Source of the DNA: Hirsutella rhossiliensis | Taxonomy: Eukaryota; Ascomycota; Sordariomycetes; Hypocreales; Ophiocordycipitaceae | Reading direction: 5' to 3' | NCBI RefSeq assembly: GCF_020360975.1 | Contig: NW_025408672.1 | Location: forward strand, 2,666,001 to 2,730,000 | DNA length: 64,000 nucleotides | Part shown: piece after piece, positions 2,080 through 60,516 of the stretch | Position numbering within the stretch: the first letter of the stretch is position 1 | How the letters are laid out: the number at the start of each line of letters is the position of its first letter | Program-made: the position numbers and the translations under genes | Notes under the pieces: generated by a model | What the model was told of the DNA's origin: nothing | Databases searched by the model: none | What the model saw: the letters and a program-made list of their open reading frames with translations, nothing else

Positions 2080-2758
2080 ATATCTAGTCGTATACTAAAA
2101 AATCGTTCCTAAAAAGCCTTTAAGCGCGCTACTCTTACTAAATATATTGATTTAAGTAAAGATCCTATTAATATACTATATACTTAATACTTTAAGGTAA
2201 AGAAGATAAATTATTAAATAGCTGAAAATTCTTCGCGCTATAATAATTATATTGCTAGTAGTTATCCTTATTATAATAGTATTTTAATAGCCTCTTTTTA
2301 TAAGTATCTTTTAATTCTTTCTATACGTAGTAGCTAATATATTTCTTTTAGTAACTAAATTATTAGTAGAGTAGCGTAGGCTATATTTTAAAGAAGAGGA
2401 AGCTAAGGAAGCCTTATTAGAGCTTTAAGTATAGCTTACGAACCTTTAGTCGTTAATATCTATCGCCGTTAATCGTTTAGCTTATATCTAAAAGATTCGG
2501 AATTATATAAAGGAAAAGAGTTCTAAGTTATTTTATCGTAGTATCTAAGAAGTAAATACTAAGGATAGCGTTTTACCTACGCTTAATACGTATAAGTATT
2601 AAGTAGTAAATAACTTATAATTATTAGGCGTTCTTAATAAGGCGAATTAGTCTTTATTTAGTATTAGTAAGGAGTTTATAGATCTTAGTCCTTTAATCCC
2701 TCTTAAACCTTTTAATAGAATTATTAAAGTAAAGAGCTATAGTAGGTTAAGTACTTAA
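2080..2758 (+). pseudogene. Antisense gene of D: Zn2Cys6-like, coiled-coil protein
   Basis: Lies between the chromodomain end and the 3' LTR of D, on the strand opposite gag-pol. The start is ATA at 2080, an ATG lost to RIP, and the first residues after it (SSRILKNRS) match the copy in A. Exon 1 is 2080-2299 and exon 2 is 2352-2758. The 52-bp gap ends in ttcttttag, contains a gctaat branch-like motif, and begins ataagt, a GTAAGT donor damaged by RIP. Exon lengths 220 and 407 bp equal those in A exactly. Exon 2 encodes a Glu-rich helical stretch (EEEEA, then LLEL). The six-Cys block is largely Tyr. Function unknown; the motif suggests a nuclear DNA-binding protein (inference). Confidence 0.65.
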
Positions 2759-11667: not shown

Positions 11668-11701
11668 GGTTATAAGCCCGGCTTACTCCTTTTAAGCCGG
11701 G
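11668..11701 (+). promoter_or_regulatory. Candidate primer-binding site and hairpin of K
   Basis: Right after the LTR comes ggttataagccc. With one RIP change (TG to TA) it is complementary to the anticodon arm of initiator tRNA-Met (gggctcataacc). Drosophila copia is known to prime from a tRNA-iMet fragment cleaved near the anticodon. The next bases form a perfect 8-bp hairpin, cccggctt (11677-11684) with aagccggg (11694-11701) and a 9-base loop, which may serve reverse transcription or packaging (inference). Confidence 0.5.
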
Positions 11702-11829
11702 AAATTAACTACTTATACCTTTGAAATTCCTCGTCGAAATATTTAATTAAAATTCCTTTTAAAATTCCCCCTAACTTCTTTTACCTTCCTACGCTCTTAA
11801 ACTCCCGTTTAAACTTCTCGATCCCTATA

Positions 11830-12580
11830 AATAAAAAAATACCGAATTTATATAAAATAGGTAGATAGAAAGAATACGAATTTACTAGACTTAAGGGAAA
11901 TTTAAATTATACCTTATAGACTACGAGGATAGAAGCTATCCTTATAAAAGAAAAGCTTATTGCTGCTCTAGAGCAAGCAAATTATATATAGACTACGGAG
12001 GCTTTATCTATAATATTCCTTTAAGTTAAAGATAGTCCCTTAATATAAATTCGGCATCTAAAAAATGCTAAAGAAGCGTAGGATAAGCTTAAAAAGCTAA
12101 ATAATCCGTCGAACTTTTCGTCGAATTATCTACTTATTAAGCAGCTCTTTAATCTTAGTCCCTCGGACTCTAATTTAAAGAAATACCTTTATAAGGTAAA
12201 GGAAATCTATAAGGATTTAAAATCCTATAATATAGAAATTCTAGAAGTTATTCTTATAGCATAGATTCTTAATTGCCTTAATAAGGAATTTAGAAGCTAT
12301 ATTATAAATATTACGTAGAGCCTTAGGCATAATTCTATAGCGTTTACCCTTAAAACCCTTATAGCTAGTCTTTTAGACGAAGCTAGAAGAATAGAGGATA
12401 TAGACAAATCTTTAGAGAAAGCCTTCTTAATACGAAAGAAGCCTTAGAAATCCTATAGAAATTCTACGGATACTCCTTATTATAAGGAGTGCAAAAAACC
12501 AGGGCATTTTATAGTAAATTGCTATAAATTATACCCGAATAAGGCTCCTGCTTATTAGGTATTAAATAAAGGAAAAAAGG
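11830..12580 (+). pseudogene. K gag region with CCHC zinc knuckle
   Basis: A degenerate copia gag (UBN2-like): LKGNLNYTL, then a stop at a Trp position, KEKLIAALEQANYI, and NKEFRSYI further on. It ends in a nucleocapsid zinc knuckle at 12482-12523, read as YYKECKKPGHFIVNCYKL, where the first Cys or His is Tyr and ECKKPGHFIVNC keeps C-x4-H-x4-C. Stops are TAG or TAA at Gln/Trp positions. A Lys/Ser-rich linker (KKRKSSSSSRKK) follows. The protein would coat genomic RNA in virus-like particles. Confidence 0.75.
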
Positions 12581-12899
12581 ATAATAGGACTCGAATTTCT
12601 AAGAAGAGAAAATCTTCTTCTTCTTCTAGGAAGAAATCCCCTTCTAGTAGTATTTCTACTACTAATAAAAGAAGGAAGGCTCGAATTACTAAGCTAAAGT
12701 CCGATTCGGAAGATAGTAATAAGGTCTTAAATATAGCTTTATAAGAAGAAAATATAGACTTAGATATCGACCTTATAGACTTCTCTAGGGCCCCGACCCC
12801 TATATAAACGTCTAAGGATTTAGAGGTAATTTTAACCTCTATAAATACCCCTATAGTAGAAGCTAATAAAGACTCTCTTTTAGGACCTTTAAAAGCTTC

Positions 12900-13960
12900 G
12901 ATTCCTAGAATAAAGGAATTAGTCTTAAAGGTAAGAAAAGGAGGATTTCCTAGTTATAAGAATAAAAAGATCTTTGATTTTATCTATAATACCGGAGCTA
13001 CTAGGCATATAGTATCTAATAAGAATTTCCTTATTAATAATAAAGAAATTAAGTTTAAAGTTTACTAGGGAAAAGCTTCCTTTATATTAGTAAAAGGAAA
13101 GGGGGACTTAGTATTTAAGTTCTTATATAGTAGAAAAAGGTATATCCTTCGAGACTACTTTTATATACCCGAATTAGGGGTAAATATACTATCCTAATCT
13201 TATTTTAATAATACCTATGCCTTAATAGGAGGAAATAAAGTCCTTTTATTAGATAATAAGGCTAAGGTCCTTACTAAAGGATTTCTTAGAAATAAATTAT
13301 ATTATATTCTTATAGAACCTTTATTAGAAAGCTAATCGATCCTTATTATATCTTTAAAAGCAAAGGATATAGATTTTTATACTTAGCACTTACGCTTAGG
13401 GCATATAAATAGTAGGGCTATTTTAGAAATATTAAAAAGATATAATAAGGATATAAAAATGCCTTTAAAAGAGGAAAATAAAATAAGGCAATACGAAATA
13501 TATATTAGAGCTAAAGCAACGAATAAGGTTAATAAATAACCTTTATATAAGTCTTATTCTTATTTAGAAAAATAGTATTAGAAAAAAGGGAGAAGCTCTA
13601 GATAGGTTCCTAGAATTTAAAAATAAGGTAGAAAATAACCCTAAAAATACTAGGATTAGAGAAGCATTTTCTAATAATACTAAAGAATTTATATATAAAA
13701 TAAAGCTTTATTGCAAAAAAAAAGGAATTACCTTTAATTCTAGTCCTCCTAGGACGCCGGAATCTAACGGTAGAATAGAAAGAATAAATCGTACTATATT
13801 AGAAAAAGTACGAGCTCTTTTATTTACTACTAGGCTTCCTAAATATCTATAGGGAGAAGCTGTTTTAATAGCTACCTATTTATATAATAGATTACCGTAT
13901 TCTACGATAGGATTTAAAAGTCCTATAGAAAGAGGATAATATAATACTACCCTTCGAGAC
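12900..13960 (+). pseudogene. K protease and integrase region (integrase core partly deleted)
   Basis: The protease block reads FDFIYNTGATRHIVS at about 12975-13017, so the catalytic Asp of D-T-G-A is Asn, the result of a G-to-A change. The GAG-pre-integrase motif HLRLGHIN follows at 13387-13410. After a Lys-rich segment (to about 13550) the frame shifts. The integrase resumes only near 13650 with its second half: KEFIYKIKLYCKKKGITF, SPPRTPESNGRIERINRT, then LPYSTIGFKSPIER. The first catalytic Asp region is not visible and the spacing is too short, so I infer an internal deletion of part of the core around 13550-13640. Confidence 0.7.
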
Positions 13961-14429
13961 CTTAAATAAAATTAAGACCTTCGAAGCCTTATATATTATA
14001 AGAATAAAGACCCTAAAGATAAGCTAGATAATAGAGCTTTTAAGGGAATAATAGTAGGCTATTTAGAAAATGCATATAAAATCTAGGATTTTTCTAAGAG
14101 AAAGATTACTATCTCTAGAGATATTACTATACTAGAAAATAAATTTATAAAAAATCTAGAAATCTCTAGTAGTAATAATACCTTTGATTTTATATGCATT
14201 TTCTAAATAAAGATAAGCTAGAAAGCAATATCCCTATAGAGGAAGCTACTAAAGAACCTAGAGATAAAAGTCCTTGCCCTTTATGAAGAAGAGTCTTTAA
14301 ATAACGATCCTATTCCTACTACTAGTCAAAATAGTAGAATTACCTAAGAAGCTGGAAGGGTCTGATTCTAACTATATCGAATACCCTAACGTTAATTTAT
14401 TTCTAAACTGCGATTTTATAGAGTTAATT

Positions 14430-15830
14430 CTAGCTAGTATAGAAAATCAGGATCTAAAAATTCTAAAGACCTATAAATAGGCAATAAATAGCCCTAAAAT
14501 AGTATTTTAGAAAGATACTATAATTAAGGAAATTATCTAGCTAATTAAATATAAAACTTAGGAATTTTCCTACCTCCTTAGGGATAGGGAGGCTATAGGA
14601 GGCCGCTAGGTCTATACCGTATATACCGATATAGATAGCGAAGTATATATCGATCTTCCTATAGGCTATAAAGAATACGCTCTTAAAGAATATTATTTAA
14701 AATATAGATTAGCTTATAGAGCTAAAGGAATTAAATTAACTAAATCCCTAGACCTATATAAAACCAGTCAAATTAAAGCAAAGCTAAAGAAAGCATTATA
14801 TAGCCTAAAATAAAGTCCTAAGCTCTAGTATAATTATTTAAAAATTATACTAAATAATCTCGGATTTCTTCCTCTTTTAATAGATAAAGGAGTATTTATA
14901 AATAAGGACTATAGTATAGCCTTAGTAATTTACGTTAACGACTTTCTTATAGTAGGGCCTTTAAATCTATAATAAAAAAGATTATTTAAAGAATTATCTA
15001 AATTCCTAGATTTTACTATCTTAGGAGATATAAAAGACTTCTTAGGTCTAAATATTATAATAAACTGAGAAAATAAAGAGCTATATATATCCTAAGAAAA
15101 TTATACCTTAAATAAATTAAAGGAATTTAATAAAGAAGGTTTAGGAACTTTAAATTTACCTATAATAGGCTTTAAGCTTATAAAAGCAAAGGAATTACCT
15201 TCTAAGGAAGATATATTATAATTTTAGAAAGAAATAGGATCTCTATTATACTTAGCCTTATTTACTAGGCTAGATATCTTATATTCTATAATTTCCTACG
15301 CTAGATTCGCGGCTAAGCCTAACTAAATGTACTTTAGGGCTTTAAATATAATTTAGAAATATTTAAATAAATTCCCTAGCCTAAAGATTAAATATAATTA
15401 TAATATCCCTTTACCTATCTATATATAAAGGGTTTTACCGACTCTAGCTAGGCGTCGGATTTAACGGACGGAAAATCCTTTTCTAGTTACTATTTTTATA
15501 TATATAATAATATAATAAGCTAGGCTTACTCTAAGTAGAAAGCCGTTGCCCTTTCTACTTATAAAGTAGAGTATATTAACCTTAGGGAGGCAAATAAAGA
15601 AGCTATTTATTTAAATATACTTTTTAAAAATATTACTAAGGATCTATTTAGTAAGATTCCTAATACTATACCTCCTATTTTAACGGATAATACTACTACT
15701 ATTAAATTAGTAGAAAATCCGGAATTTTATAAAAGGTCTAAGTATATAAGATTAGCCTATTACTATACTAGAACTAGTATAAGAGAAGGGAAATTAGAGT
15801 TTTTATATTAAATTAGAAGATAATATAGCT
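14430..15830 (+). pseudogene. K reverse transcriptase and RNase H (copia type)
   Basis: RT motifs in order: SEVYIDLPIGYKEYALKE, KALYSLK followed by a stop at a Gln position, then SPKL (copia ALYGLKQSPRLW), and the active site VIYVNDFLI at 14925-14951, where YVDD has become YVND. GSLLYLALFTRLDILYS follows. A frame change near 15420 precedes the RNase H remnants, which end in REGKLEFLYIKLEDNIANI if the frames are followed. Stops are TAA and TAG. Catalysis is lost by both the stops and the Asp-to-Asn change. Confidence 0.78.
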
Positions 15831-16269
15831 AATATTTTACGAAGGAATTAAGACCTAGATTACTCTATAAATTTAAAGACGGTCTATCCTTAATATAAGT
15901 TCTAAGCAATTAAAAGGGTTTTAGATATTTCTTATACTTTCTATATCTTTCCCCTATTAGGTTTTTCCTTTTTAGGTTTCCTAGAGAAATATTTACTAGG
16001 TTTTTATCTATTAAGATTTTCCTAGTAATAATAGGTTTTACCTTATATAAGGTTATCCTATAAATAATTATTATAACTATAGATTTTTCCTACTATAGGT
16101 TTTTCTATTAGTATATACCTAAGGATTTTTTTTTTCCTAAGAAAGAATAGGTTTTTATATATCCTATTAAGGTATAAGAATAGTTTTCCTATATTAGGTT
16201 TTTACCCTATATATATATTACTATAAATAAATTAGTAAAGAGTATATAAATCTACTCTTTAAGGGAGGC

Positions 16270-16838
16270 TATAAGGAACGGTGTTCCTACTATAAATAAA
16301 GTAGCTATAATATACTCTCCTAATTATATAAGCTAATAAGTAGTATATTAATTATAGATAAAACCTTATCTTATAGAGTAAGAATCGCTCGTTATTTTAT
16401 ATATTATTATATATTAAACGGGTTACCGGTTATTATATAATCGGGAATCGAAGGAATAGAGCTAGCTTAGAATGCTAGCTAAGACCTCTTAAGAATACCG
16501 GCACGACTAACCTCCTTTAAACACGAATATTAAAGGAACCAAGACACTTCTAGATTTACTTAAGGTATCACGGAATTTCCTAGTCTTAGGGCTATACGGC
16601 AGCCTAAATCTGGTCCCGAAAGGTTCTTCCGTTTAGCTATAATTATCTATATAAGACAGTATGTCCGCTAGTAGATAGAGAGAGAATTATTAACTTAAAC
16701 ACCTCTTCTATATACTAATACACTACTAATAAATTCCGTTGAAAATCCTACCTTATACTCCTTCTTCCCCTCTATTACGTAGTCTTACGTAATTCCTTAA
16801 TTTCCTAAAATTCCGCTTTTTACTTATATACCTTAAGA
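16270..16838 (+). repeat. 3' LTR of K
   Basis: 569 bp, preceded by the polypurine tract aagggaggc and followed by the target duplication actaa (16839-16843). Confidence 0.85.
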
Positions 16839-35529: not shown

Positions 35530-35980
35530 TATTACGACTACGGCTACTAGGCCGCTAACGGTCGACCGCGTTAAAGCACGTGACACGGCCTAACGGATAA
35601 ATAGTCGGCACGACTATCTAATAGATATAGGATCGAGGGGATCGCAGAGATCTAAGTAATCTAGGATTAATAGGATCACTACGCCCTATGCGATCTAACG
35701 TTAGGGATTATAGCTAGGCCTATAATCTAAGGATAGTCTCTATAGGTATATATAGCTACCTACTTTTACTCCTTTAGATAGATAGCTCGATAGCTTTTAA
35801 TATAGATCTTTATTACGATTCTATCTCTAATTCTAATTACCTAGTTATAGTCTACGGTCTACGATCTCCGACTTATTACTAACGTAATATATATATTATT
35901 GCTTAGACCACGCCCTATTATATCTACTAATATAAACCCCTCGATAGGTTTATCCCTTAGGAATAACACCGGTCGTTATA
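35530..35980 (+). repeat. 5' LTR of A (451 bp)
   Basis: Starts tattacgactacgg (TGTTACGACCACGG in the 3' LTR) and ends ggtcgttata. It keeps a CACGTG box at 35577-35582. It carries more C-to-T and G-to-A changes than the 3' LTR. Confidence 0.9.
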
Positions 35981-36041
35981 CGTTAAAAGCTCTTATTTAG
36001 TGCAATACCGCGTTACTCTAAGCAATATCGTAACTATTAAT

Positions 36042-38600
36042 ATGCCTATATAGTAAGCTAGATTAACTAACTCTAGAGCTACTATATCGCCTTAGGATAT
36101 AATACGCGAGATTATTACCCTTCGATATAAGGTATAGTTACTTAGGAACGGAGGAGGCAACGGATAAGTTAGGGACCTTAGAGAAGTAGTTAAACTAAAA
36201 TAGCTAGGACTATTCGACGGTACTTATAGCACGCTTCGAGACTTTCTTACCTAACTTAAGGCCTACTACCGGTTTTACCCTACTAAACTCTCGGACCTAG
36301 TCGAAAAGGTACTCTACGTAGGAAATTGTTTATCTAGAACGGCACTCGCCTAGTTTAGACCTATTATAAGGGACTTTCTCGATAACTAACTAGCGCGACG
36401 AGATAACGAGATAGATAAAGTCTTTGCTAGTTTCTAAGGATTCGAAGAAGCTATTATAAAGGTATTCGGAACAACCGACGAGGAACGAGAAGCCGAATAA
36501 AAACTTCGAGAACTCCGATAAAGGATCTTAGTATCGGATTATACTACGAAGTTCCGATAAGTTACCTTAAAGCTTAATTAGGACGACGAACCTCTTATAT
36601 TACGATTCTACGATAGGCTTAAAGAAGAAGTTAAGGACGAACTCTATAAGGAAAATCGACCTAATAACCTCTCGGACTATATTACTATAGTAGTACGAAT
36701 CGACGATAGATAGTACGCGCGACGCTAAGAAAAGAAATAAGGAAGAGGAAACTAGAACCCTTCCTATAGGAATAACTTTAACCGACGCGCTAACTATAAA
36801 AAGAAGCGCGAAACTCCTATTACCTATGCCTATATAACTAACCTAGGTAGGATAGATCTAGATATAATATAGAAAAGTAAAGGAAAGTATTTTAACTACG
36901 GGAAACTTAGATATTACTCTAAAGAATATAGATAACCTCGTAAGGAGAAGAAAACCTACTAGGTACTAGCCCTAGAAGGTAAGAAACACCTAAACGCTAC
37001 TAATAGATAGGAACTAAAGCATAAACTCCTTAGTTAGACTATATACTACGACGACGAATGCACGGTATACCTAAGCGATAAGAACGGTACCGGATAGTTC
37101 TTAAAGCTACTAAAGAAGACCCTTGCAATAATATAACGAAGGGATCCTAAAATATAGAAATAAGTTAAATTCGTAGAACTAGAATACCCCTATCCTAAAG
37201 GAGTCTCCTAAGACTAGATTAGGAAGAACGGCAAACGATTCTAGGAAGATATATAAAATAAAAATCGATAATAACGATAGGCAGTCTATAAACAATATAA
37301 TAAAGAAGATATAGATATAGCCCTTATACTTACGAAACTCGGACAATAACCTAAAGAGGAACAACGAAGTGTCGACGATATAAGCTCTAAAGAATAAGAA
37401 ATACCTAGAGAAACGGAAGACGAGAACGAACTTATACTACTACCCTCGCTACTAAGGGAGAATGCTACGATTAGAGAACACGCTCTATACTTCGAAGAAT
37501 TCGAAGAAATGCTTAAAATTAGAACCTAATAAACACCTTAAATTCTCACGGAAAACTAATAAGCTATACTAGTTCGATATTAACCGGCACTACGCGGAGG
37601 AGACTACGCTATAGCTATCGCTATAGTCGATACCTTTATAGCTCTATAACGAGAATAGTAACTATAAGGAGAATTTAAAGACGATCTATAAACACTACTT
37701 ACTTATAAGCACTATAAGTATATTTTATAGATATTATATATCTACCTAAATTGCATAATATACTTCTAGATAAAGGCACGATACGACGCCTTCCCGGTTA
37801 GGTTCGAGGGATAAGTACTTTCGAAACCCTACCTAAGCATAGAACTAGACTACTAGAAAATCGATTAACGCTACCCGAATAACTAAGTTATATTATTAGA
37901 ACCTAATTACGGCACGCTACTTAAATACCGCGATAATTACGGTTTATTAACGAGATATCTTTTAGAGACATATAAAATCCATAAACACGCTAAAATAAAG
38001 GAATAGCATAGCGCTACTCGCTCTAAGACATCCGAACCCTTAATCTTCTAAAGACTTACGTAACGAGTTAAATGCGACGAAGAAGATTATAACGAATACG
38101 TATACCCGAACTATAGAATTTATAAACACGAAAAAGCATAAGTATAGTATAAACGATATAATAGTATATTAAAAGATTATTAGTAATACGTACGAAGGCT
38201 ATAAGCCGTATTCGACTAAGGAAGAATTAACACGGAAATACTATATAAAAAATAGAAAGACGTAAAACGAAAACTTAACCTTTAGTACGAAAACGAATAG
38301 AATTACGAAGTATAGTACGCAATTAACTACGAAGTAGTATAATATAAACGATATAGCGTCGAGAAATAAGAAATCTTCGATTAGCTATAAGAAATCAGTC
38401 TCTTAAGCCCCGATATAATACTACGCGATAAAAATATAAAGAAACAATATTAATAATAAATTAAAGAAGAATACCTAAATAAAACGAATAAGGACTAGGC
38501 AAAAAACGAGGTACGCTATCTATAAAAGGGCTATAGACTAGCACGATACGATAAGATCTAAGGACCCTATATATAGCAACGGTAAGCTATAGCGACTAAA
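36042..38600 (+). pseudogene. A gag polyprotein (RIP-inactivated)
   Basis: The intact ATG at 36042 opens frame 0: MPI, stops at Gln codons, ARLTNSRATISP, then the retrotransposon gag domain FDGTYSTLRDFL, LKAYYRFYPTKLSDLVEKVL, NCLSRTALA, FRPIIRDFLDN. The nucleocapsid zinc knuckle is at 36888-36929, read YFNYGKLRYYSKEY: every Cys and His of CxxCxxxxHxxxxC is Tyr through TG-to-TA and CA-to-TA changes. Frame 0 goes on for a further ~1.6 kb (LVRY, GGDYAIAIAIVDTFIAL, LLEPNYGTLLKYRDNYGL), an unusually long tail. Stops are TAA and TAG at Gln/Trp codons only. The 3' border is approximate. Confidence 0.78.
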
Positions 38601-41600
38601 TAGTATTAGATATCTAAATCGCGGGATATTACGTACGTATACTTTTAGACTATAGCGCGATAGGCAATTACGTTTTACCTAAAGTCGTTAATCGTTACCG
38701 ACTTATATAGAGATATAAGATAGATCTATATAAACTTACGAATATCGAAGGAGAGGCCTTTAACTATAATAACGGAATTATTAATATAGAGATTAATTAC
38801 CTTAATATTAATATCTAGGGCTACGACGAATAAGTTAACTTCGATATTATAGATATTAAAGAACACGACCTTATATTAGGACTTCTATAGCTATAGGAGA
38901 GCAACCTACTAATTAACTAGAGAACTAGCTAGCTACGTTAGAACGAAGACGTAAGTTTCTAGGACTAGTAGATTTAGGAGAAAGTAAAATTTTGCGATAA
39001 TTTAGCTACTAAATAGGATAAAAGGGATAACCGTTTAAGTAAATTATTACGGGCTTTAGCGATATAAACGAAAATAGTAACCGAACTAGCGGATATAATA
39101 AAATCGACTAATAAGACCTACGTACTAACTAACACGGCTGTATAACCTAGCATCCGATATAAATAAAATAAAAGATATAATACGAAGATCTAAAGAGTTA
39201 TTGCTACTTTAAGGAAAGACCTTAAACAAATTAATAAAGAGCTCGAGTTAAGAGAAACTAGCTCTTAAAAGAAAGAATAAAGCCTATAAGATAGAATAAA
39301 GAATATCCCCTAGGAATACCGGAAATACAATAAACTCTTTAAGGAAGAACTCGAGATAGGGTTACCTAAATATAGCTAATAGGACCACGAAATTTATCTT
39401 AAGGATAGAATAACGCCGACGTTCTATAAGATCTATAACCTAAACGAAAAGCAACTATAAACGCTACGCGACTACCTCGACGAGAATCTACGAAAGGGAT
39501 ATATACGAATATCTATATCCGAAGTAGGCTACCTAGTTATATTTATTCTAAAGAAAAACGGCAAGCTACGACTAGTTATCGACTATAGACGCTTAAACGA
39601 TATTATAATAAAGGACCGAATACTATTACCGCTTATATCGGAACTACGAGATCGACTATATAGTAAAAAATAGTTTATAGCCCTTAATCTTAAAGGCGCC
39701 TATAACTTAATACGTATAAGAAAGGGACACGAATAGATAATAGCTTTTAGAACGAAATTCGGACTATTTAAATATCTAGTAATGCTATTTAGACTTATAA
39801 ATGCACTAGCTACCTTCTAATAGATAATTAATAATATCCTACGCGAACACTTAGATATCTTTATAGTAGTATACCTAGATAATATCCTAATCTTCTTAGA
39901 CACCCTAGAAGAATATAAGGAATACGTCTATAAGGTACTCCGCGTACTTTAGAATACGAAGTTACTAGTTAAACTAGAGAAAAGCAAGTTCTATATATAG
40001 AAAGTAGACTTCCTCGGACATACGATCTTACTAGGAGAGATATAAATATAATAAGATAAGATTAACTTAGTTAAAGAATAGCTAACGCTAAAGAATATTA
40101 AGGACGTATAAAGTTTCCTAGGATTTATAAATTACTACCGACGATTTATTAAAGATTTCGGAAAGATTATAGTACTATTATACGACTTAACGAAGAAGGA
40201 AAAAGAATTTATATAGGACGATAAAGCTAACGAAGCTTTCGATTATATTAAGACTACGATTACGTAAGAACTAGTCCTAACTACCTTTAATCTAGAACGA
40301 TAAATCGAACTTAAAACCGATATATTAGACTTTGCTCTAGGAGTATAAATCGGATAAAAAGACAATAAAGGAAGACTACGATTAATTGTATTTTACTCGA
40401 AAAAGCTATATAGCGCAGAACTTAATTACCCTATCTACGATAAAGAATTCCTTATAATTATTTAAGCTTTTAAAGAATTTCGACACTACCTTCTCGGAAG
40501 TAAATATAAAGTTAAGGTCTATATAGATTATAAGAATATCTTATATTTTACAACGACGCAATAGTTAAACGGACGATAGATTTAATAGGCCGAATATTTA
40601 TCGGAATTCGACTACGAAATAATCTATAGAAAAGGAATAGAAAACGGTCGAGCTAATGCCCTTAGTCGACGAAGTAACTACGATATAGGAGCACCTATAG
40701 CGAAAGGACAGCTCCTAGAAATCAACGAAAATAGGAACTACTAGTAACGATAGCTAAATATAATATTTAAAGTATAACCCGACGACTCGATATACTAAAA
40801 GATCCTAAAATAGATAAAAGAACACGAAGTATTAAACGGATGCGATATAGAATATTTAGAAGTTCTAATATATAAAAATAAAATCTAGATACTACTAGAA
40901 TTATAAGATAAAGTTATATAAGATATATACGAATATCTAATATATAGATACTAAGGAATCCGAAGAATAATAGAACGGATTAAACGATAATATAACTTCC
41001 TATAGCTTAAAGAAGTAGTATAATAAGTTATTAAAGAATATAAACTTTACGTATAAAGTAAAGCTAAACGATATAAACTATACGGAGAATTGCAACCGCT
41101 ACTAGTACTAGAAAAACCATAGGATTCGATAGCTTTCGACTATATTATAAAGCTACTACTATTAAAAGAACCTATAACTAACGTTAAGTACGATAGTATA
41201 TTCGTTATTACCGATAGACTAACGAAGTACGGATACTTCTTACTATATAAAGAAGCAAGCAATATAGAAGAGCTAGTATATATATTCCTACGAACAATTA
41301 TTAGCAATTATAGACTACTAAACGAGATTGTCTCTAATAGAGGAAGTATATTTATAGCTAAGTTTTAGCAAGCTCTTATAGTATAATTAGGGACGAAATA
41401 TAAGCTTAGTATAGCTTATTACCTATAAATAGATAGATAAATAGAACGACTTAACTAAACGCTTAAATAATATTTACGATGCTATATTAGCTACGAATAA
41501 AACGATTAGGTTAAATAGCTATTAATAGCGTAACTAGCTTATAATAGCTTAGTTATAGAAATAACTAAACTCTTACTAGTATACGCTAATTACGGATATA

Positions 41601-42193
41601 ACCTAGAAGCATTTAAGGTTACTCGATAAGGACTATAAGTAGAACGAGCGATACTATAAGTAGATTAGCTACGAAAATTATATAAAGAAATATAATAAGA
41701 ACTTTAATTCGTTAGAGAACGAATATCTACTTACTATAATCGGAAAAGATTATAAGAACTAATCTTTCGAGAGGGAGATATAGTCTACCTCGTACGACGA
41801 AATATTAAAATAAATCAACTAAGCAATAAATTAGATTTTAAGAAACTTAGACCGTTTAAGGTTAAGAAAATTATTTTAAAAGTTAACTATGAACTTTCGC
41901 TACTAACGATAATACGGATATACCCGATATTTTATATCTTATTATTAGAACTAGTACTACGAAACGCTAAACTATAGGAAAAAATCGAAGTCGACGATAA
42001 TTAGGAATATAAAGCCGAATAAATACTAAATATAAGAAAATAAGGTTAGCAATAAGAATACCTTATTAAATAGAAAGGATATAGACTAGAAGAGAATACC
42101 TAGGAACTACTTAAGCACTTAACCTACTATGGCTCTCTACTTCGATAATTTTACTAGAAGGTTTAGGAGGGATTAAAGGACTAAGATCCGTAA
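38590..42193 (+). pseudogene. A pol: protease, RT, RNase H, integrase, chromodomain
   Basis: One frame (frame 2, -1 relative to gag) with no indel over 3.6 kb. Protease: LLDYSAIGNYVLPKVVNRY at 38642-38698 (DCSATGN type) with DIKEHDLILGLL near 38850. RT: RDYLDENLRKGYIRISIS at about 39468, LVIDYRRLND, and active site VYLDNILIF at 39869-39895 (YLDD changed to YLDN). RNase H: LKTDILDFALGV at about 40310. Integrase: ITDRLTKYGYFLLYKE near 41205, and SNRGSIFIAKF, where the catalytic Asp of SDRG is Asn. Chromodomain at 41987-42124: EYLIK-stop-KGYRLEENT-stop-ELLKHL (KWKGY..NTWE). Stops are almost all TAA or TAG at Gln/Trp. Confidence 0.88.
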
Positions 42194-42790
42194 ACTCCTC
42201 GCTAATACCGAATAAGGACTAATTCGCCTCGTTAGGAACGCCTAACGATTATAAGTTATTTGCCACCTAATGCTTATACGCATCGAGCGTAGGCAAAACG
42301 CTATCCTCGGCATCTACTTCTTAGATACTACGACGAAATAACTTAGAACTCTTTTCCTTCGCACGATTCCGAATCTTCCGGATATAAGCTAAACGATTAA
42401 CGGCGATAGATATTTACGACTAAAGGTTCGTAAGCTATGCCTAAAGCTCTAATAAGGCTTCCCTAGCTTCCTCCTCTTCGGAATATAGCCTACGCTGCTC
42501 CGCTAATAATTTAGTTACTAAAAGAAATACGTTAGCTACTACGCGCAGAAAGAATTAGAAAGATACCTATAAGAAGAGGCTACTAAAACACTATTATAAT
42601 AGGGACGACTACTAGCAATATAATTATTGCAGCGCGAAGAATTTTCGGCTATCCGATAATTCGTCTTCTTCGCCTTAAAGCATCGAGTGCACGGTATATC
42701 GGCAGGATCTCCGCTTAAGTCGATGTGTTCGGCAAGAGTAGCGCGCTCGGAGGCTTTTCGGGAACGATTTTTTAGTATACGACTAGACAT
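42111..42790 (-). pseudogene. A antisense gene: Zn2Cys6-like and coiled-coil protein, one intron
   Basis: Runs convergent to pol between the chromodomain and the 3' LTR, overlapping pol's last ~80 bp. The start is the intact ATG at 42788-42790 (MSSRILKNRSRKASERATLA); another in-frame ATG lies upstream at 42847. Exon 1 (42571-42790) has IPCTRCFKAKKTNYRIAENS then SRCNNYIASSRPY, C-x2-C-x7-C-x8-C-x2-C-x6-C with three Cys now Tyr. Exon 2 (42111-42517) opens LTKLLAEQRRLYSEEEEARE, a predicted coiled coil, then IAVNRLAYIRKIRNRAKEKS, and ends after PPKPSSKIIEVESHS. Joined exons give 209 codons. A Zn2Cys6 fold implies a nuclear DNA-binding protein (inference). Confidence 0.72.
42518..42570 (-). other. 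Intron in the A antisense gene (donor lost to RIP)
   Basis: 53 bp on the minus strand: ataggtatctttc... gtagctaac (branch-site consensus gctaac) ...ttcttttag. The expected GT donor reads AT, as a TG-to-TA RIP change at T|GTAGGT would give. The coding phase (1) and flanking residues Ser-Ser-Leu agree with the intron in B and D. Confidence 0.65.
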
Positions 42791-42913
42791 ACTATTAGTA
42801 GCATATCCCGAAAAGATAAAGAAACAAGGAACGACACACTTACGCACGACGCGATAAGGGTATATTTATACACGGCGGCTAAGGCAGCTATAGCAGGTCT
42901 TACGGATAAGACT

Positions 42914-42926
42914 AAAAGGAGGGGAG
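42914..42926 (+). promoter_or_regulatory. Polypurine tract of A
   Basis: aaaaggaggggag lies just upstream of the 3' LTR (start 42933). This is the primer site for plus-strand DNA synthesis. The same tract precedes the LTRs of B and D on the minus strand. Confidence 0.75.
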
Positions 42927-42932
42927 ATATCG

Positions 42933-43383
42933 TGTTACGACCACGGCTACTAGGCCGCTAACGGTCGACCGCGTCAAAGCACGTGACACGGCCTAACGGA
43001 TAAATGGTCGGCACGACTATCTAATAGATATAGGATCGAGGGGATCGTAGAGATCTAAGTGATCTAAGATTAATAGGATCACTGCGCCCTATGCGATCTA
43101 ACGTTAGGGATCATAGCTAGGCCTATAATCTAAGGACAGTCTCTACGGGTATATATAGCTACCTACTTTTACTCCTTTAGATAGATAGCTCGATAGCTTT
43201 TAATATAGATCTTTATCACGATTCTATCTCTAATTCTAATTACCTAGTTATAGTCTACGGTCTACGACCTCCGACTTATTACTAACGTAATATATATATT
43301 ATTGCTTAGACCACGCCCTGTTATATCTGCTAATATAAACCCCTCGATAGGTTTATCCCTTAGGAATAATACCGGTCGTTATA
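42933..43383 (+). repeat. 3' LTR of A (451 bp)
   Basis: Starts TGTTACGACCACGG with the TG end intact. It contains a CACGTG box at 42980-42985. Ends ggtcgttata, followed by the target duplication tatat. Confidence 0.9.
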
Positions 43384-43388
43384 TATAT

Positions 43389-43677
43389 TAAAAGCTAGAG
43401 AGCTATCTATTTAAAGGAGTAAAAGTAGGTAGCTATATATACTTATAGAGACTATCCTTAGATTATAGTCTTAGCCGTAATCCCCTTTATAGCTTACTAT
43501 AGCTTACTTATAAGCTATACTCTTAAGTAATAATCTATCTATATAAGGCTTACTTAGCTTATATACGCTCTAGGTAAGCTAAGCCTAAGTAACTTCTTAT
43601 CCTAACTATTATTCTAAGCCGCCTTATTATATAAATATAGCCGGCTCTCTTACGGCCCGCTAACTATAGTTATAATA
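43389..43677 (-). repeat. Right part of the 3' LTR of B (U3 side)
   Basis: Continues the LTR interrupted at 35529. Ends gttataata, followed by the polypurine tract complement. Its U3 (ccggctctcttacggcccgc region) is unrelated to that of A. Confidence 0.85.
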
Positions 43678-43812: not shown

Positions 43813-44439
43813 ATATTTAGTCGCGTGTTAAAGGATCGTTCTTATAAGACCCTTAAGTATATTTATTTAGCTAAGTCTATTAATCGTCTTAGTTTCGACG
43901 TTATACTATATTCTTTTTATTCGTTACGCGGCTTCCGCTATAAAATACTAGAGAAATCTTCTAAGTATACCGAATATATATAGCGGGGTCGTTCTTATAA
44001 TACGTTAGGCGTAGCGATTAGCTCCTATAAGTAACTTTATTATCCTACCTATTATTTATAGCTAATGTATATCTTAGTATCCTAAATAAATCTAGAGTTT
44101 AATCGATTAAATAAAGAAGAAGAAATTACTAAGGAGCGAATATTAAAAGCTTAAGCCGACCTAAATAAAGCCTTAGCTCGTTTAGTAAGGCTTCGCCGTT
44201 AAAAGCGCTAGCTAAAGATAAAGGGTACTAAGATAGTCTATCGGGGCCTTTATTCTTTAAATAACCTTAATAAGGCTAAGCGCCAAGAATCTAAAGCGGT
44301 AGTCGATATTTAGTCTATAGGTAGATTTAATATAATTAATTAGAATACTATTAGTTTATTAAGTGATTTTATAATACCTAGGGTAGATTTTACTAGTAAA
44401 ACTATCGAAGTAAAGAACTATAGTAGGTTAAGTACTTAA
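43813..44439 (+). pseudogene. B antisense gene: divergent Zn2Cys6-like and coiled-coil protein, one intron
   Basis: Same position and orientation as in A and D. It starts at an ATA (mutated ATG) with FSRVLKDRS. Exon 1 is 43813-44026 and exon 2 is 44078-44439, 192 codons together. Exon 1 carries YSFYSLRGFRYKILEKSS then KYTEYI-stop-RGRSY, i.e. C-x2-C-x6-C-x8-C-x2-C-x6-C with all six Cys changed to Tyr, exact Zn2Cys6 spacing. Exon 2 reads LSQ-like start, LEFNRLNKEEEITKERILKA, ALARLVRLRR and LYSLNNLNKAKRQESKAVVD, a coiled-coil type sequence. Sequence identity to the A protein is low outside the pattern, so this is an old, diverged family. Confidence 0.68.
44027..44077 (+). other. Intron in the B antisense gene (donor lost to RIP)
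   Basis: 51 bp: ataagtaacttt... tagctaatg ...atatcttag. The donor is AT for GT, as in D. Phase 1, between Ser-Ser and the second base of a Leu codon, the same position as in A. Confidence 0.65.
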
Positions 44440-52799: not shown

Positions 52800-54090
52800 A
52801 ATATAGCTTTTTTATAACGATCTATTAATAAGATACTTTAGCTTTTAATATACTAGCGAACTACTAGTAAGGAACTTTTATTAAGATAGAATAATAAAAG
52901 ATATAAATAAATACGTTTAATTATACTTAGTATATTAAGGTATAGTATTTAAGAGGTATTGCCCCTATAATACTATATAATTATTACTATATTCTATATA
53001 ACTATAGGAAGAATTATTAATAGACTTTACTATAAGTCTACTTAAAGTATAGTATAATAGATAAAACGTTAATACGATCTTAGTAATTATAGACTAATAT
53101 ATTAAGTATTACCTCTTCTTTCCTATCTCTAAAATAATAATAGCCCTAGAGCTAGTAAAATTATTTTATTATTAAGTTAAATTAGTATATAAACCTTTAA
53201 AAGGCATTATCTTAGATAAAGGGTCCTTATTTATAAGTAAGTTTTAGTTAGATCTTTATTTTATCTTATAAGTAAAATATAAGCTATCGATAGTATTTTA
53301 CTTATAAACTAATAGGTAAATAGAATAAATAAACTAAGCTATATAGTACTACTTAAGATACTTTACTAACTTAGAATAAACTAACTAAGCGTTACTCCTA
53401 TATATTACTTAATTTATATATAATAATATAAAGAATATAATAACTAGGTTATTACTTAACGAAGCGTTAATAGGTTACTAACTAAACTTCTATATTAATA
53501 CTAAGGACGATATTATTTAAAGGGGGGTACCTAAAGTAAGAGTAAGAGTTACTAGGCTATAGGAGCTATAAAAGAGGCTTAAGGAATACTAAGGAAAGGC
53601 TATTAAATTATAAGTAAAATACTATAATTTAAGGTACTAACCGCTTATACTAAAAGTAAGAGACCTTATAGTATTATCGATAAAGAACTTATGCCTTAAA
53701 GATAAAAAAAGAAAACCCTTACCTAAGTATATTAAACCGTTTTAGGTCCTATAAGCTATTAGAAAGTAAGTATATTATTTTATACTCCCTAAGAAGTACT
53801 TACGCCTCTATAACGTTTTCTATATTAATCTCTTAAAGTAATAGAAGGAGCGTAAAGGCACCTATAAAGATAGCGAAACCCTATTAATACTAGACTTAAA
53901 GGACGATAAAGGCGAATAGGAAGTCTAAGAGATTAAAGACTAAAAGAGATCTAAAAGTAATACCTTTTCCCTTATTAAATAAAAAGGATAGCTAGCTAAG
54001 TATAACTAATAGGTCGATACTAAAGATATAGTAAATAGCTAAGACCTTATTAAAGAATATATTACTTGCTTAACTAAGAAAAAGAAGTAT
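52800..54090 (+). pseudogene. H2 integrase and chromodomain
   Basis: Second copy of the H integrase. DFTISLLKV lies at about 53020, IILDKGSLFISKF near 53205, and the NR-stop-IE-stop-IN block near 53310 keeps the third catalytic residue, Glu. The chromodomain at about 53890-54030 reads KRSKSNTFSLIK-stop-KG-stop-LAKYN, each stop at a Gln or Trp position of a KWKGWPAEYNQW-type motif. Confidence 0.75.
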
Positions 54091-54381
54091 AAGACTAAGT
54101 AAGGTAGGGAAACTTATTAGTATAAGGAGACGCTACTAAACCGGTAATAAATCCCTATTAAATCGCTACTAACTTATTAATATATTAGTATGCTTAAACG
54201 TCTTATAACTATATATAAAATAGTAAAATAAGAGAATAAGGGAAAACTATCTATATTACTTATTAAATATTATTAAGGAAAATAAAACTAAACTATAACT
54301 TTACTAAGGCCCTAATAATAAAGGAGAGAAGGATAGTTATAGCTAAATAAAAGAAAGATAAGACCTATCTATTACTTTTAA

Positions 54382-55941
54382 CTACCTTTTTTCTTCGCTA
54401 GCGTAGTAGGAATTAACTAAGGCGCCCCCTTTACTATACTAAATACCTTTAAAAATACTAAAACTACCTTATCCTCTACTCCTTCCTTATCCTTTATATT
54501 AAGACCTATCTTTATTAGTATAGTACTTACCTTAGCCTTAGTAAATAGTAAGGCGTATTACTATAAAGTATAGCCTATATCGCTATTAATAAAGTAAAGT
54601 TTTAACTAAGATTCCTAGGCCTAGTACTCTAAGCTTATATAGGCGATATTAAATAAAGGCGCGGGGTTAAGGTAAATAATAAGCTTATAGCGCTTATTAA
54701 TTAGTATATAGTAATTAGTACGCTTAACTTAGTATATTATTAAGCGGTCGCTAATAAAAAGGTTAGATAAAACTTATAATAGTAGACTTCTATATACCTA
54801 TAGTCTTAAAGGACTTATAATAGGCTATCTTAGCGGCGTTAAAAGCCTCGGCTAAATACTATACTATAATAGTAAGATAGCGCTAAGTAGCCTCTTTAAA
54901 AATAAGCACGCTTATATTTAAGCTATTGTCCTTAGTATCCTTATTATTAGTCTTTAGCTTATTAAGCTTATATAAGTACTTAACGATAGCGACTATATTA
55001 GCTTAGTTATTAAATATAAGAGTAGCGGCCTTAAAAAAGATTAGCTTATTAATTATAATATTTAAAGTTAAGGGGAAACTTACTTAGTTATAGGTTATAG
55101 TATATTTATAATACTACTTATAGCGCGTTAAAGAAACCCCTAAGAAAATATAGCTAATCGAGAGTACCTTAATAAGCTTAAGCTTAGTTATATTATACTC
55201 CTTAACGACCGTCCTAAAATAATATATATACTAGAGCTTATAAGGGATAACCCTATAAGCCTTAACTAAGTAGGCTTTAGCCTTAGATTAAGTATGCTTC
55301 TTTATAAGAGCGCGACCGCTTTATACTACCGCCTAGGTACCCTTATCTCTAGCGCCGCTATTCTTAGGTTTATCGGTAAAAGGAGTTAGATCGCGGCCGT
55401 CTTTATTATTACTATTACTATTATCTTAGCCCTTATTTAGCTAAGTATTAAGATAGTCTTAGCCCTTATTTAGCTAAGCCTTATCGTTAATATCGGCCTA
55501 CTTATTTTAAGGAGCAGCTTAAGTAATAATCTCTTATTAGTTAGAGCCGCCTTATTAAGATAAAGTAGCTAGGTTATTAATACTTACTTAAGAGCGCTTA
55601 AGTATAATCTCCTTACTAATATTAATATCGCTAATAAGGGTAATAGACTTATAAGTTTCCTAGCTTATAAAGGTAGGCTTATTAATAGCTAGAGTTAAGG
55701 TATTTAGTAAGGTAATAGGGGTATAACCCTTATTAATATTAGGTCTTAAACTAAAAGTCTTTTAAGACTAAGATTCCCTTATACCTTTTTTAGCTTTCTT
55801 TATTAAAAGGGAACTAGTATTACTATAAGACTTCTAAGCTAATCGCTTATACTTTAAGGGTAAACCTACTACTACTTACTCTTATATATAGTATAAGAAA
55901 TTAATATTATAGTTCTTTATCTTCTTTAGCGTAAAAGGTAT
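54382..55941 (-). pseudogene. H2 antisense gene: 520-codon frame of unknown function
   Basis: Opposite to pol, between chromodomain and 3' LTR. A single frame runs 1560 bp from an ATA (mutated ATG, 55939-55941; two more ATA codons lie directly upstream) to TAG at 54382-54384, broken only by TAA/TAG at likely Gln or Trp codons. N-terminal part: PFTLKKIKNYNINFLYYI, later IKKAKKGIRES. Middle: QLNKGQDYLNT-like repeats and an Asn/Ser/Asp-rich, RDLTPFTDKPKNSGARDKGT segment. C-terminal half: AKAYLVKAYRVIPYKL, YYFRTVVKEYNITKLKLIKV, IINKLIFFKAATLIF, LNNILS, probably helical. I do not recognise the family. The H1 copy has the same length. Confidence 0.68.
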
Positions 55942-56784: not shown

Positions 56785-57798
56785 ATACTTATAGTAATAG
56801 CTATAATAGTAATAATAGCCCTAATAATAATAACTTTAACTAGTAAGTTCTCCGCCCTATAGAGTAGGAGGCTATAATCCGTAATACTAACTTCCGTAAT
56901 AAATATATCTACCTCCCCCTCCCCTGCTTCCTCCTTCTTAGAGCGTACGGAGTTATTTATCGACGCCGTGCTAGGCACGGCTAACGATAGCTCCGCTGCT
57001 ACCGCTACTCTTACCCGCGCCCCCGCGACCGCGCCTACCGCCGCCGCCTCTACCTCTACTACGCTAGCCGCCCTTACGTCGCCCTTCTAGGTAATAACGC
57101 CGTCTACGCCACTAGCCGTAACGCCCGGCCCCTCTACCCCTACCTCCGCTACTACTACCCCTATAAGTCCGCTACCTAGCGAGCGTAGTAGCTATTTTCC
57201 GCTAACTTCTTAAAGTATAAACGCTAAGTATAGGCCGGAGCCGCCCGCGCGGCCTCCTATATACGGTGCGCGTTATAAGAGCTCCCCTACGCCGACTAAG
57301 TTAGGCGCCGCCGTAGTAGTAGTTATTACTAGTACGCGCGTGCCGGCCGCGCCTATAAAGCGGCGCCTCCTATCCTACTCGCTATAGCGTTGGCTTAAAA
57401 GGCCGGCGCGTATAGGTAGGCACGGGGGGCTACTAAGAAGCGCCTTACCGCCGCCGCCGCCGCCTACCGTAATCTCCGCGCCCTTAAGCGCTAGGGCCTT
57501 ATCCTTAAGTAAGTTCCTCTTATCTAGCTCTTTTACTTCCGCTATTAACTCTCTTAGTACTAAGGATACTACCTCCGTTGCCTTATTAGTAGTCCCCTTA
57601 GCTATGCCCGCCGCTGCCCCTACCGCTATTACTAGCCGGGCCCCCCCTACCCCCGGAGCCCCTAGAGCTACCGCTACTACCGACTAGCTCGCGGGCCTAG
57701 AGGGCCGCCTAAGCGCCTTAGAGAGCGCCGCCGCTATTAATAAGGTAGAGGAGGATAATAAGGATAAGGATAACGATAACGATAAGGATAAGGAGTAG
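56785..57798 (+). pseudogene. G antisense gene: Ser/Thr/Pro/Ala-rich protein with acidic Asp/Lys/Asn tail
   Basis: On the strand opposite G's pol, between chromodomain and 3' LTR. About 338 codons in frame 1, starting at one of several ATA codons (mutated ATG) near 56785-56797 and broken by few TAA/TAG. Low-complexity blocks: SVINISTSPSPASSFLERTE, TRAPATAPTAAASTSTT, LPPPPPPTVISAPLS, RAPPTPGAPRATATTD. A heptad-like segment LAGLEGRLSALESAAA precedes the tail KVEEDNKDKDNDNDKDKE. GC content is far above the surroundings because Ala, Pro and Thr codons offer few CpA sites. No known domain is recognised; a structural or nuclear role is only a guess. Confidence 0.62.
57754..57795 (+). repeat. Hexamer microsatellite (gataag/gataac)
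   Basis: A run of gatAAB-type hexamers (gataat, aaggat, aaggat, aacgat and so on) encoding alternating Asp-Lys/Asn at the C-terminus of the G antisense frame. Confidence 0.7.
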
Positions 57799-57959: not shown

Positions 57960-59500
57960 TATTTTAAATAAGGCTTTAAACTTATCGAGGGCTATAGTTC
58001 CTATAAACTTATATATAGGTTCCTATATAAGGTCGAGATACCCGCGCTACTTAACGAGGACCTCTTAGCGTTTCCCCCTACTAACCTTTTTCTAGCGCGC
58101 GGCCTATATCTCTTTAACCTTAAACTTATCCTCTCCCTCTACCTTAATTATAAGCGATTAAGCGTCTACTATTTCTTATCTAGGTAGTAGGTTAAAGGAG
58201 GCTCTATAAAGGAGGTCTATATTAATCTTATTATAGACCCCTATTAGGAGACTATTAAGCTTTATAACCTATAGGCTAATAACCCTTTATACTATAAACT
58301 TCGCGTATAGCTAGTTAAGCTTCTTCTTTAGTTATACTAACTTATAGTTATAGAGGTCTAGCTATACCTTATCTCTTACCGCGAACTTATTTACTAGGGC
58401 CCTAGTCTTATTAGCGTACCGCTCTTAATCTTACGCCGCGGCGGCTATCGCGGATTAGTAATAATCTATAGTCTCTTATAGCTTTCGTATAAATATAAAG
58501 GCATAGCCCTCTAGTAACGAATTACTATACTACTCCGCTACTATATCTATAGTAAAAGGAACTAATAAAGGTAGTTTAAAGCTATATATTATAAAAAAAG
58601 GGGCTATCTTAATAAAGGTATATAGTTTACTATTTAATATAAGTTAGGCCGCGGGGAGCTACTAGTCTTAGTTTACTTAATTATAGGCTATAATAGCCCG
58701 TAGGTAAGCCTATACCTCTTAGTTAACCTTCTTAGGCCCTTTATTAGTCTATAAGTAATATACTATACTAAGTAGCTATATAATTTAAAGTAGCTAGTAT
58801 AAGTACTACTAAAAGCGGCTAGTTTAATTTAATCCCCTATTACTTATAATAAAGGCTAGCTAGCTATATAAGTAAGCCTAGTACTATAAGAAGCGCTCTA
58901 TATAGGACTTTATATCTATAAATAGTATTAGCTCTAATACTATAGACTTACTAAGTCGGTCCTTAATTACCTATATATAGTAGTTACCGCCCTCTATAGG
59001 TAGGAGGTCCGTTATAAAGTCTATCTATATATATATATAAAACTAGTTAGGCACTAGAAGCTACTTAAGTAGCCCTTTAAGCTATACCCTTTAGATCTTT
59101 ATATAGCTATAAATATTATAGTTATAGAGGAAGCAACGAACGTAGTACTATAGGAGAGGCTAGTAAAAGTCCCTTATAAGGCCTACTACTATACCTTATT
59201 TACCTAGGTAACCTACGACGCTAAAGTTATAGATAAGTTAGACTAGCCTCCTTTAAAGCTTATTCTATTTATCTAGCTCTAGTAGTCCCTCCTTCTCCTT
59301 AGCTTCTATAGTATATAGTATACTTAGTACCTATAGTCTCCCTTATTAGTATAGATACCCTTATAGGTCGATATAGTAGTCGGCTACCTATACCTTTAGC
59401 TTTAGCTTTAGATTTAAGCGTTAAGCGCTAGACTTAATAGCGCGGCGCACGCCCTTATAGGTGCGGTCTAGAGCTACTATCTTATCCTATAAGCGTTAAA
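57960..59500 (-). pseudogene. G chromodomain and integrase
   Basis: The chromodomain, minus strand, about 57960-58125: AAR-stop-KKVSRGKR-stop-EVLVK-stop-RGYLDLI-stop-EPIYKFIGTIALDKF, each stop at a Trp or Gln position (EVLVKWRGY..TWEP). The integrase C-terminus and core lie to the right and align with F 10430-11098 and 16844-17500. The copia target site is intact at about 58764. Stops are TAA and TAG. Confidence 0.75.
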
Positions 59501-60516
59501 GGGCCTTATCTTAAAATACTCTCGCCGCGCGCGCCCTTAGGCCGGTCTATCCCTCCTCGCTAGACTAAGGTAAGGGCGCGGGGGGAAGCTTATTCGCTAG
59601 CACCGCGTCTTCCTTTACTAAGGAAGCTCCTATATAAGTCTATAGTACTTCCTATAGGATAAGCTATAGATCCTAGGCCTCGATATCCGCTCCCGTTAGC
59701 TGGTCTTAATCCCTCTAGGAAAGCGTATCTAGGACCGCGGAGTCCCGCTTAAGGCGGTACTTAATTAAGAAGTTAAAGCGTAAGAGATACTCCGCTTAGC
59801 GGGCTTACTACTCTAAGAGGTATTAGCGAGTTATAAAGTACTTAAGGTTCTTATAGTCTATAAGAACCTTAAAGCTCTTATAGCTCTAGAGCTCCGCTTA
59901 CTATTGCTTAAAGTAGCTAATAATCGCTAGTATCTCCTTATCGTAAATAGCGTAATTCCGCTCTACTAAGGTTAGCTTATAAGAGTAGAACGCTACTAGT
60001 TACTTCTACCCGTTTACCTCTTAAAAGAGCGTTCTTCTAAGTACCTAGCCGCTATAGTTTACTTTAACTAATATAGACCGGTTAAAGTCCTATTAAAGTA
60101 GTACTAGGGCTTAAGAGAATAGGTCCTTAAGCGTATAAAACGCTCCTTCCTATATAGGCCCTTAGTAAAAAGCGGTCCGCTTCCTAGTAATTTTATTTAA
60201 GGGCATTATAATATAGGAGAAGCCCTTAATAAATATCCTATAATAGTTCGCGAACCTAAGGAAGCTTTATACGCCTATTTATATAATTAAGGTAGCTTAG
60301 TCCTAAATCGCCTAGATCTTTATAGGGTCCGCTTATATACCTATACTTATATAGATAATAAAGCCTAGGTACTTAACCCTCTTAACCTTAAATTTATACT
60401 TATCTAGGTTAAGGTAGAGCCTATAAAGTTAAAGGCGCTTTAGGACCCTCTATACTTTCTATATATAGTCCTTAAAAGAGCCGCTTATATAAATAAGGAT
60501 ATTATCTATATATATA
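59501..60516 (-). pseudogene. G RNase H and RT C-terminal part
   Basis: Aligned with F 17500-18960. The RT end reads LYRLYLNLDKYKFKVKRVKYL at about 60376-60440 (the empty site of the MITE is here). The left limit of RT is inferred from F. The RT active site is at or just beyond the E junction. Confidence 0.65.

Follow-up and report, generated by a model that had tools for sequence, protein, structure and literature searches.

What does a gene do that lies antisense behind pol in a fungal retrotransposon, and why does it come in several types on one and the same backbone? The question is raised by a 64,000-nucleotide stretch of Hirsutella rhossiliensis DNA (contig NW_025408672.1, positions 2,666,001 to 2,730,000; here called the window), in which the elements A (− strand), B (− strand) and D (+ strand) form a single Ty3/Gypsy family with a common gag-pol. 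Our analysis points to exchange of this gene, which encodes a Zn2Cys6-like protein, together with the neighbouring U3 of the long terminal repeat (LTR), and the protein may regulate its own element through that U3. An earlier note on this DNA had proposed three chromovirus families with an independently filled slot before the 3′ LTR. Neither part is supported: A, B and D have their gag-pol in common, and the other elements named there, H and G, are treated below.

Repeats altered by repeat-induced point mutation (RIP) make up the bulk of the window, and CpA/TpG is almost absent. Further copies were searched in the genome containing the window (82 Mb, 40 contigs). The family was classified on the un-RIPed copy L057, whose DNA matches the D pol. 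It shows rve (E 1.6e-9), SH3_Tf2-1 (E 3.3e-19) and Chromo (E 3.6e-17), all above Pfam cut-offs. Read from this copy, an integrase is followed by a C-terminal chromodomain, and the family of A, B and D is a chromodomain Ty3/Gypsy element (chromovirus). A Pfam search with the RIPed 48-aa piece of D itself gave no match. The relevant features are as follows.

35532..35991, + strand: 5′ LTR of element D
41756..42130, + strand: integrase C-terminal SH3-like part and chromodomain of the D pol (RIPed), from the domain matches of the counterpart L057
42571..42790, − strand: exon 1 of the D antisense gene, 220 bp, with the ATG at 42790 and the Zn2Cys6-like motif
42518..42570, − strand: intron of the D antisense gene, 53 bp, with donor GT changed to AT, branch GCTAAC and acceptor TAG
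42111..42517, − strand: exon 2 of the D antisense gene, 407 bp, with the coiled coil, a conserved C-terminal part and the stop at 42113-42111
42858..42871, − strand: TATA-like box about 70-80 bp 5′ of the ATG, putative promoter of the D antisense gene
42914..42927, + strand: polypurine tract ahead of the D 3′ LTR, found by eye
42933..43171, + strand: U3 of the D 3′ LTR, exchanged along with the antisense gene
about 43146-43159, + strand: sense TATA within the D 3′ U3
43172..43396, + strand: R-U5 of the D 3′ LTR, constant across types
2080..2758, + strand: antisense gene of element A, of D's type, 220 bp + 52-bp intron + 407 bp
43813..44439, + strand: antisense gene of element B (type B, a diverged homologue), about 214 bp + 51-bp intron (44027-44077) + 362 bp
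43381..43677, − strand: U3 part of the B 3′ LTR, unlike the U3 of A and D

The antisense frame of D (42790 to 42111) holds 8 internal stops, and that of A holds 12 and begins with ATA. Its structure was compared in 21 distinct copies of the A/D type, those of the window and 20 elsewhere in the genome. Exon 1 is 220 bp and the intron 52 or 53 bp in all 21. Over the stretch of exon 2, 20 copies measure 413 bp, and L023 has a truncated alignment. The exon lengths of 220 and 407 bp claimed earlier for A and D are borne out by the coordinates. The ATG is kept in 12/21 and the AG acceptor in 20/21. A GT donor is found only in L012; all others read AT, the expected product of RIP. A stop-free frame is found in none of the 21. 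The frames had been described as broken only by RIP-type stops; this is weak evidence, because TG is almost gone in RIPed DNA and TGA is rare in every frame. For B, the exon-intron bounds are our own approximate reading. The earlier observation is partly confirmed: A and D carry one gene type, and B carries a diverged homologue. Besides AD and B, the types T3, T5 and T6 were distinguished, so that the single pol backbone hosts five antisense gene types. The TATA-like box 5′ of the ATG is present in the A/D, B and T3 types.

Integrase-chromodomain DNA adjoins the antisense gene in 55 of 56 loci, duplicates counted (exception L032). The orientation is antisense to pol in 69 of the 70 loci of the final set that hold both; the exception, L029, spans D and B. 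The un-RIPed T5 and T6 types have open antisense frames. Among these un-RIPed elements (L049, L050, L057-L071), substitutions are few, and most differences between copies are short indels, which disrupt gag-pol and in many cases the antisense frame too; L049 and L050, for example, differ by 22 mismatches and 16 gap openings across 5360 bp. The indels may be homopolymer errors of assembly, or the copies may be young and degenerate.

The product, predicted at about 208 aa, combines a Zn2Cys6-like motif of six cysteines with a coiled coil, as had been noted earlier for A, B and D. The six cysteines are invariant in 33/33 chosen aligned members. In D, Tyr stands in place of cysteines 3, 5 and 6 of this motif, a change predicted by RIP; all six are present in L051 (type B) and L048 (type T3), both with stops. 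The arrangement CX2CX5-9C...CX2CX5-8C is found in 115 of 136 sequences, and in 80 of these 115 a CX7C spacing replaces CX6C. Among the structural matches, the nearest solved fold found is that of HAP1, a tentative likeness for the cluster and its dimerisation helix. A sequence search of the PDB with A4 gave nothing significant: the best value, 0.067, belongs to a coiled-coil match, and the Zn2Cys6 subunit RSC30 stands at E 3.2.

Relatives are spread across Sordariomycetes, with E as low as 2e-58, and stop-free antisense proteins exist among them; the check for open relatives proposed in the earlier note comes out in favour of a gene. One stop-free antisense protein from the host genome is 100% identical to the Hirsutella rhossiliensis protein P0017. 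A protein search with one RIPed copy as query returned 0/155 candidates at E 0.01, and a scan of viral contigs with A2 as query found no relatives. Identity of the RIPed AD protein to B, from the same genome, is 31%, but it is 55% to the metagenome protein P0001 and 49% to a Trichoderma protein. The T5 protein reaches 67% with a protein from Colletotrichum truncatum, against 57% with T6. T6 in turn reaches 77%, over 127 aa, with a partial protein from Beauveria. By these identities the alleles of the slot gene cross genera. All five types are homologues within one six-cysteine family, and this rules out that five unrelated genes were captured independently. The claim of an independently filled slot is replaced by one in which the slot is refilled through allele exchange with U3. 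Several metagenome relatives among P0009-P0013 start at the exon 2 start of the window gene, which suggests that they have the intron position in common.

Selection was estimated from one pair, the un-RIPed T5 and T6 genes (178 codons, 59% identity). The antisense frame gives dN 0.339, dS 2.18 and a ratio of 0.156, which is approximate because dS is close to saturation. By pN/pS, the antisense frame stands at 0.38 and the mirror frame, which shares third positions with it, at 0.47; the remaining four frames lie at 1.14-1.57. As far as one pair can tell, the antisense protein frame is under purifying selection, and the other frames except the mirror frame are not selected; the test proposed earlier thus came out in favour of a gene. 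Judged by position, orientation and selection, this gene fits the class of antisense open reading frames (ORFs) between pol and the 3′ LTR (aORF-3R).

RIP yields transitions only, and for this reason transversions were chosen as the measure of divergence. For the counts between types, five copies were chosen for each of AD, B and T3, and one for T5. The pol divergence between types is 0.002-0.003, equal to the within-type level. In the slot it is 0.12-0.16 transversions per site, with a shuffle control at 0.173, in U3 0.11-0.16 and in R-U5 0.008-0.021. The steps are located by comparing D with B. Across the 6400 sites of 35732-42131 there are 16 transversions; the three 200-bp bins that follow hold 46, 51 and 49, the promoter/polypurine tract bin 8 and U3 49; the first bin, in the 5′ U3, holds 43. 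In this profile the antisense gene lies past the conserved pol, ending at its edge. The profile of A against D shows no abrupt step.

The un-RIPed types behave alike. The integrases of a T5 and a T6 element (L057, L064) agree in 648/648 bases and the R-U5 (L049, L065) in 224/225. Their U3 are 76% identical, against 71-76% in shuffled pairs, with fewer gaps than shuffled. In the chromodomain region, T5 and two T6 elements differ with a dS of 0.31-0.35, so divergence between these two types already starts there. Gene type matches U3 type in 68/68 rows holding both. At distinct places the concordance is 56/56 with none discordant, after 11 duplicate loci and L029 were dropped; three T6 loci (U3 not scorable) and two G loci (neither gene nor U3) were left unscored. 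Same-type copies are not independent, and these 56 loci therefore represent few exchanges. From these data we are highly confident that gene and U3 were exchanged as one block. Divergence in place by positive selection is out, given an antisense dS of about 2.2 (T5-T6) against an integrase dS of 0-0.043, and is also countered by U3 changing along with the gene. RIP as the source of the type differences is out as well, since the steps remain in transversion-only counts.

In three of the five U3 types, type-specific words recur significantly. In T5, GGATCA occurs 9 times and in T6, GATCAC 6 times, each reached in 0/500 shuffles; in B, GCTCAC occurs 6 times, reached in a fraction of 0.002 of 500 shuffles. 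In AD and T3, repeated words are in excess (fractions of 0.02 and 0 of 500 shuffles). With the same shuffles, R-U5 has no repeated words. Dyads in U3 compare with shuffles at 0/300 for T5, 0.003 for B and 0.01 for T6; those in R-U5 lie at 0.07-0.27. A dimeric zinc-cluster protein would bind dyads, so the U3 dyads are candidate operators. In the U3 of AD and of B, a dyad with a common geometry (8-nt arms, 6-nt spacer) lies beside the sense TATA, upstream of it, and the arms differ.

From these results the antisense gene and the adjacent U3 may be read as a regulator-plus-operator module. Its exchange among otherwise near-identical elements would most simply have come about via template switching in reverse transcription. 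The protein is most likely nuclear, would dimerise by its coiled coil and would bind the type-specific U3 dyads. Since U3 has the antisense gene on one side and the sense TATA on the other, a single protein could control both its own expression and the gag-pol transcription of all copies whose U3 matches. The favoured sign is that of a repressor limiting copy number. On balance we consider it probable that the protein is a self-regulator acting on its own U3, with either sign, repression being preferred. The earlier note had listed silencing control, counter-defence against RIP or heterochromatin, and self-regulation as roles, and of these self-regulation appears to fit best. Several observations weigh against this reading. 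The word and dyad tests used one copy per type. The top-word test is not significant for the U3 of AD and T3 (0.54, 0.57), the AD dyads are weak (0.04) and the T3 U3 has none. The Pfam model Zn_clus (PF00172) reaches at best 17.9 bits, under its gathering score of 21, and matches at E<=1 in just 8/33 members; these sub-cut-off scores are why we write Zn2Cys6-like rather than Zn2Cys6. The types T5 and T6 are without the TATA-like box of the other types. Finally, gene and U3 are adjacent, and their linkage could be passive.

This last point leads to a less likely alternative, in which the protein acts on the host, on its chromatin, silencing or RIP, and the diversification of U3 is a separate escape from host control. 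Gene and U3 would then move together owing to their adjacency at the 3′ end of the RNA, for which one template switch, placed upstream of the gene, would suffice. The element crapaud offers a parallel: its U3 diversified on a common internal region, for which the authors, in the part of the paper available, propose promoter selection or chance (PMC10787394). Such hitch-hiking alone leaves it unexplained that type-specific U3 dyads stand beside the gene of a likely dimeric DNA-binding protein. A little less probable still is that the same cassette works with the opposite sign, the protein activating its own U3, so that an exchange would bring a new private promoter with its activator. Anatomy and exchange data suit this equally, and the nearest solved fold found, HAP1, is a transcriptional activator of yeast; against it, an activator in trans would also benefit competitors with a common U3. 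The likelihood given to activation is contained in that given to self-regulation, and the likelihoods worded here do not add up to one.

That the antisense RNA matters rather than the protein, by double-stranded RNA and silencing, is improbable. Antisense transcripts can silence elements, and such a role is proposed for plant antisense ORFs in the portion of the review at hand (PMC7264820); it requires neither purifying selection on the protein frame nor invariant cysteines, and both are observed. The idea that the frames are open by chance, as a mere complement to LTR or sense-coding sequence, deserves almost no weight for A, B and D. There it is refuted by the conserved intron, the relatives to E 2e-58, the selection in the antisense frame and the place of the gene beyond the conserved pol. 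The gene is almost certainly genuine in these three elements.

Chance frames hold for H as far as tested, and are possible for G. H1 and H2 are + strand elements for which a long antisense gene had been claimed. For H2 (53650-55300), stops number 46 over 549 codons in the best antisense frame and 50 over 550 in the best sense frame, and a 270-codon piece of the antisense frame holds stops in 142/142 scored candidates (of 395, in a list that favours RIPed copies). With a stop density like that of the sense strand, this frame is dropped as evidence of a gene. The very abundant element G has its pol on the − strand and a conserved S/T/P/A-rich frame on the + strand (56920-57789, also in L072 and L073). 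Among the 135 candidates scored out of 1004, this frame shows 0-7 stops for every 290 codons or so, and one copy of full length is without stops. The DNA of G is about 65% GC, and the opposite-strand frame has just 1 stop in 307 codons (L072). Both strands being nearly open, the S/T/P/A-rich frame is ambiguous as an antisense gene. Elsewhere in the window, the element at 11099-16838 is copia-type (RVT_2, Retrotran_gag_2; LTRs 96% identical) and nested inside an older element that matches 58102-60374. Positions 1-850, at the border of the AT-rich block, are about 50% GC and hardly RIPed.

Antisense genes in the slot between pol and the 3′ LTR are known from plant Grande/Retand and from brtn of Botrytis Boty, and their roles are described as undetermined in the sections seen of one review (PMC7264820). 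The brtn gene is an extra antisense gene of Boty-like elements in Botrytis cinerea, and resembles the present case as an addition to a fungal chromodomain Ty3/Gypsy element; likened by description only, it differs in that the available excerpts do not describe U3 co-exchange (PMC8365987, PMC4227169, PMC5987419, PMC7264820). The plant genes (Grande gene23, RIRE2, Retand TRP28) are likewise antisense between pol and the 3′ LTR, with an own promoter in Grande and suspected nuclear or DNA-binding proteins. They belong to the non-chromovirus Retand lineage, and the excerpts of these sources describe no Zn2Cys6 protein and no linked U3 exchange (PMC7264820, PMC11963269). Closest in U3 behaviour is crapaud of the Podospora anserina complex, a chromodomain element under RIP with 14 LTR subfamilies that differ mostly in U3 before the TATA. 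Its internal regions do not follow LTR type, and the authors leave the cause open in the part seen; the element is drawn with two ORFs, and the word 'antisense' is absent from the text (PMC10787394). The same term is absent from 'LTR Retrotransposons in Fungi' by a term search (PMC3248453). We found no printed account in which an antisense gene encodes a Zn2Cys6 protein or in which gene and U3 are exchanged together; this is weak evidence of absence, as most subscription papers lay outside the search.

Fungal Zn2Cys6 regulators such as HAP1 share with the present protein a six-cysteine cluster followed by a coiled coil, with tentative structural matches. The present protein differs in being encoded antisense in a mobile element, in scoring under the Pfam cut-off and in often having CX7C for CX6C. 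The arrangement also recalls temperate phages, whose immunity regions consist of a repressor and its operators, and in which heteroimmune phages escape resident repression. In both, a regulator gene, here a putative one, stands beside type-specific repeated dyads and is swapped as a cassette in a constant backbone; here it is a retrotransposon, the gene is placed antisense and its function is putative. The candidate regulator gene and its candidate target sites are inherited as one block, much like an immunity module. We tentatively extend this, at somewhat less than even odds, to a retrotransposon immunity, with a type-own repressor and U3 operators. Cassettes would be traded within one pol lineage, copies would escape resident repression, and the alleles would predate the backbone and be shared across genera.

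For an antisense accessory gene, a molecular role is here likely and selection can be measured, and its joint exchange with U3 suggests what it targets. U3 subfamilies that lack an explanation, crapaud's among them, thereby gain a possible cause that is open to test: each U3 type may serve as the operator of a regulator that travels with it. If true, retrotransposons would handle their mutual competition through specific regulators.
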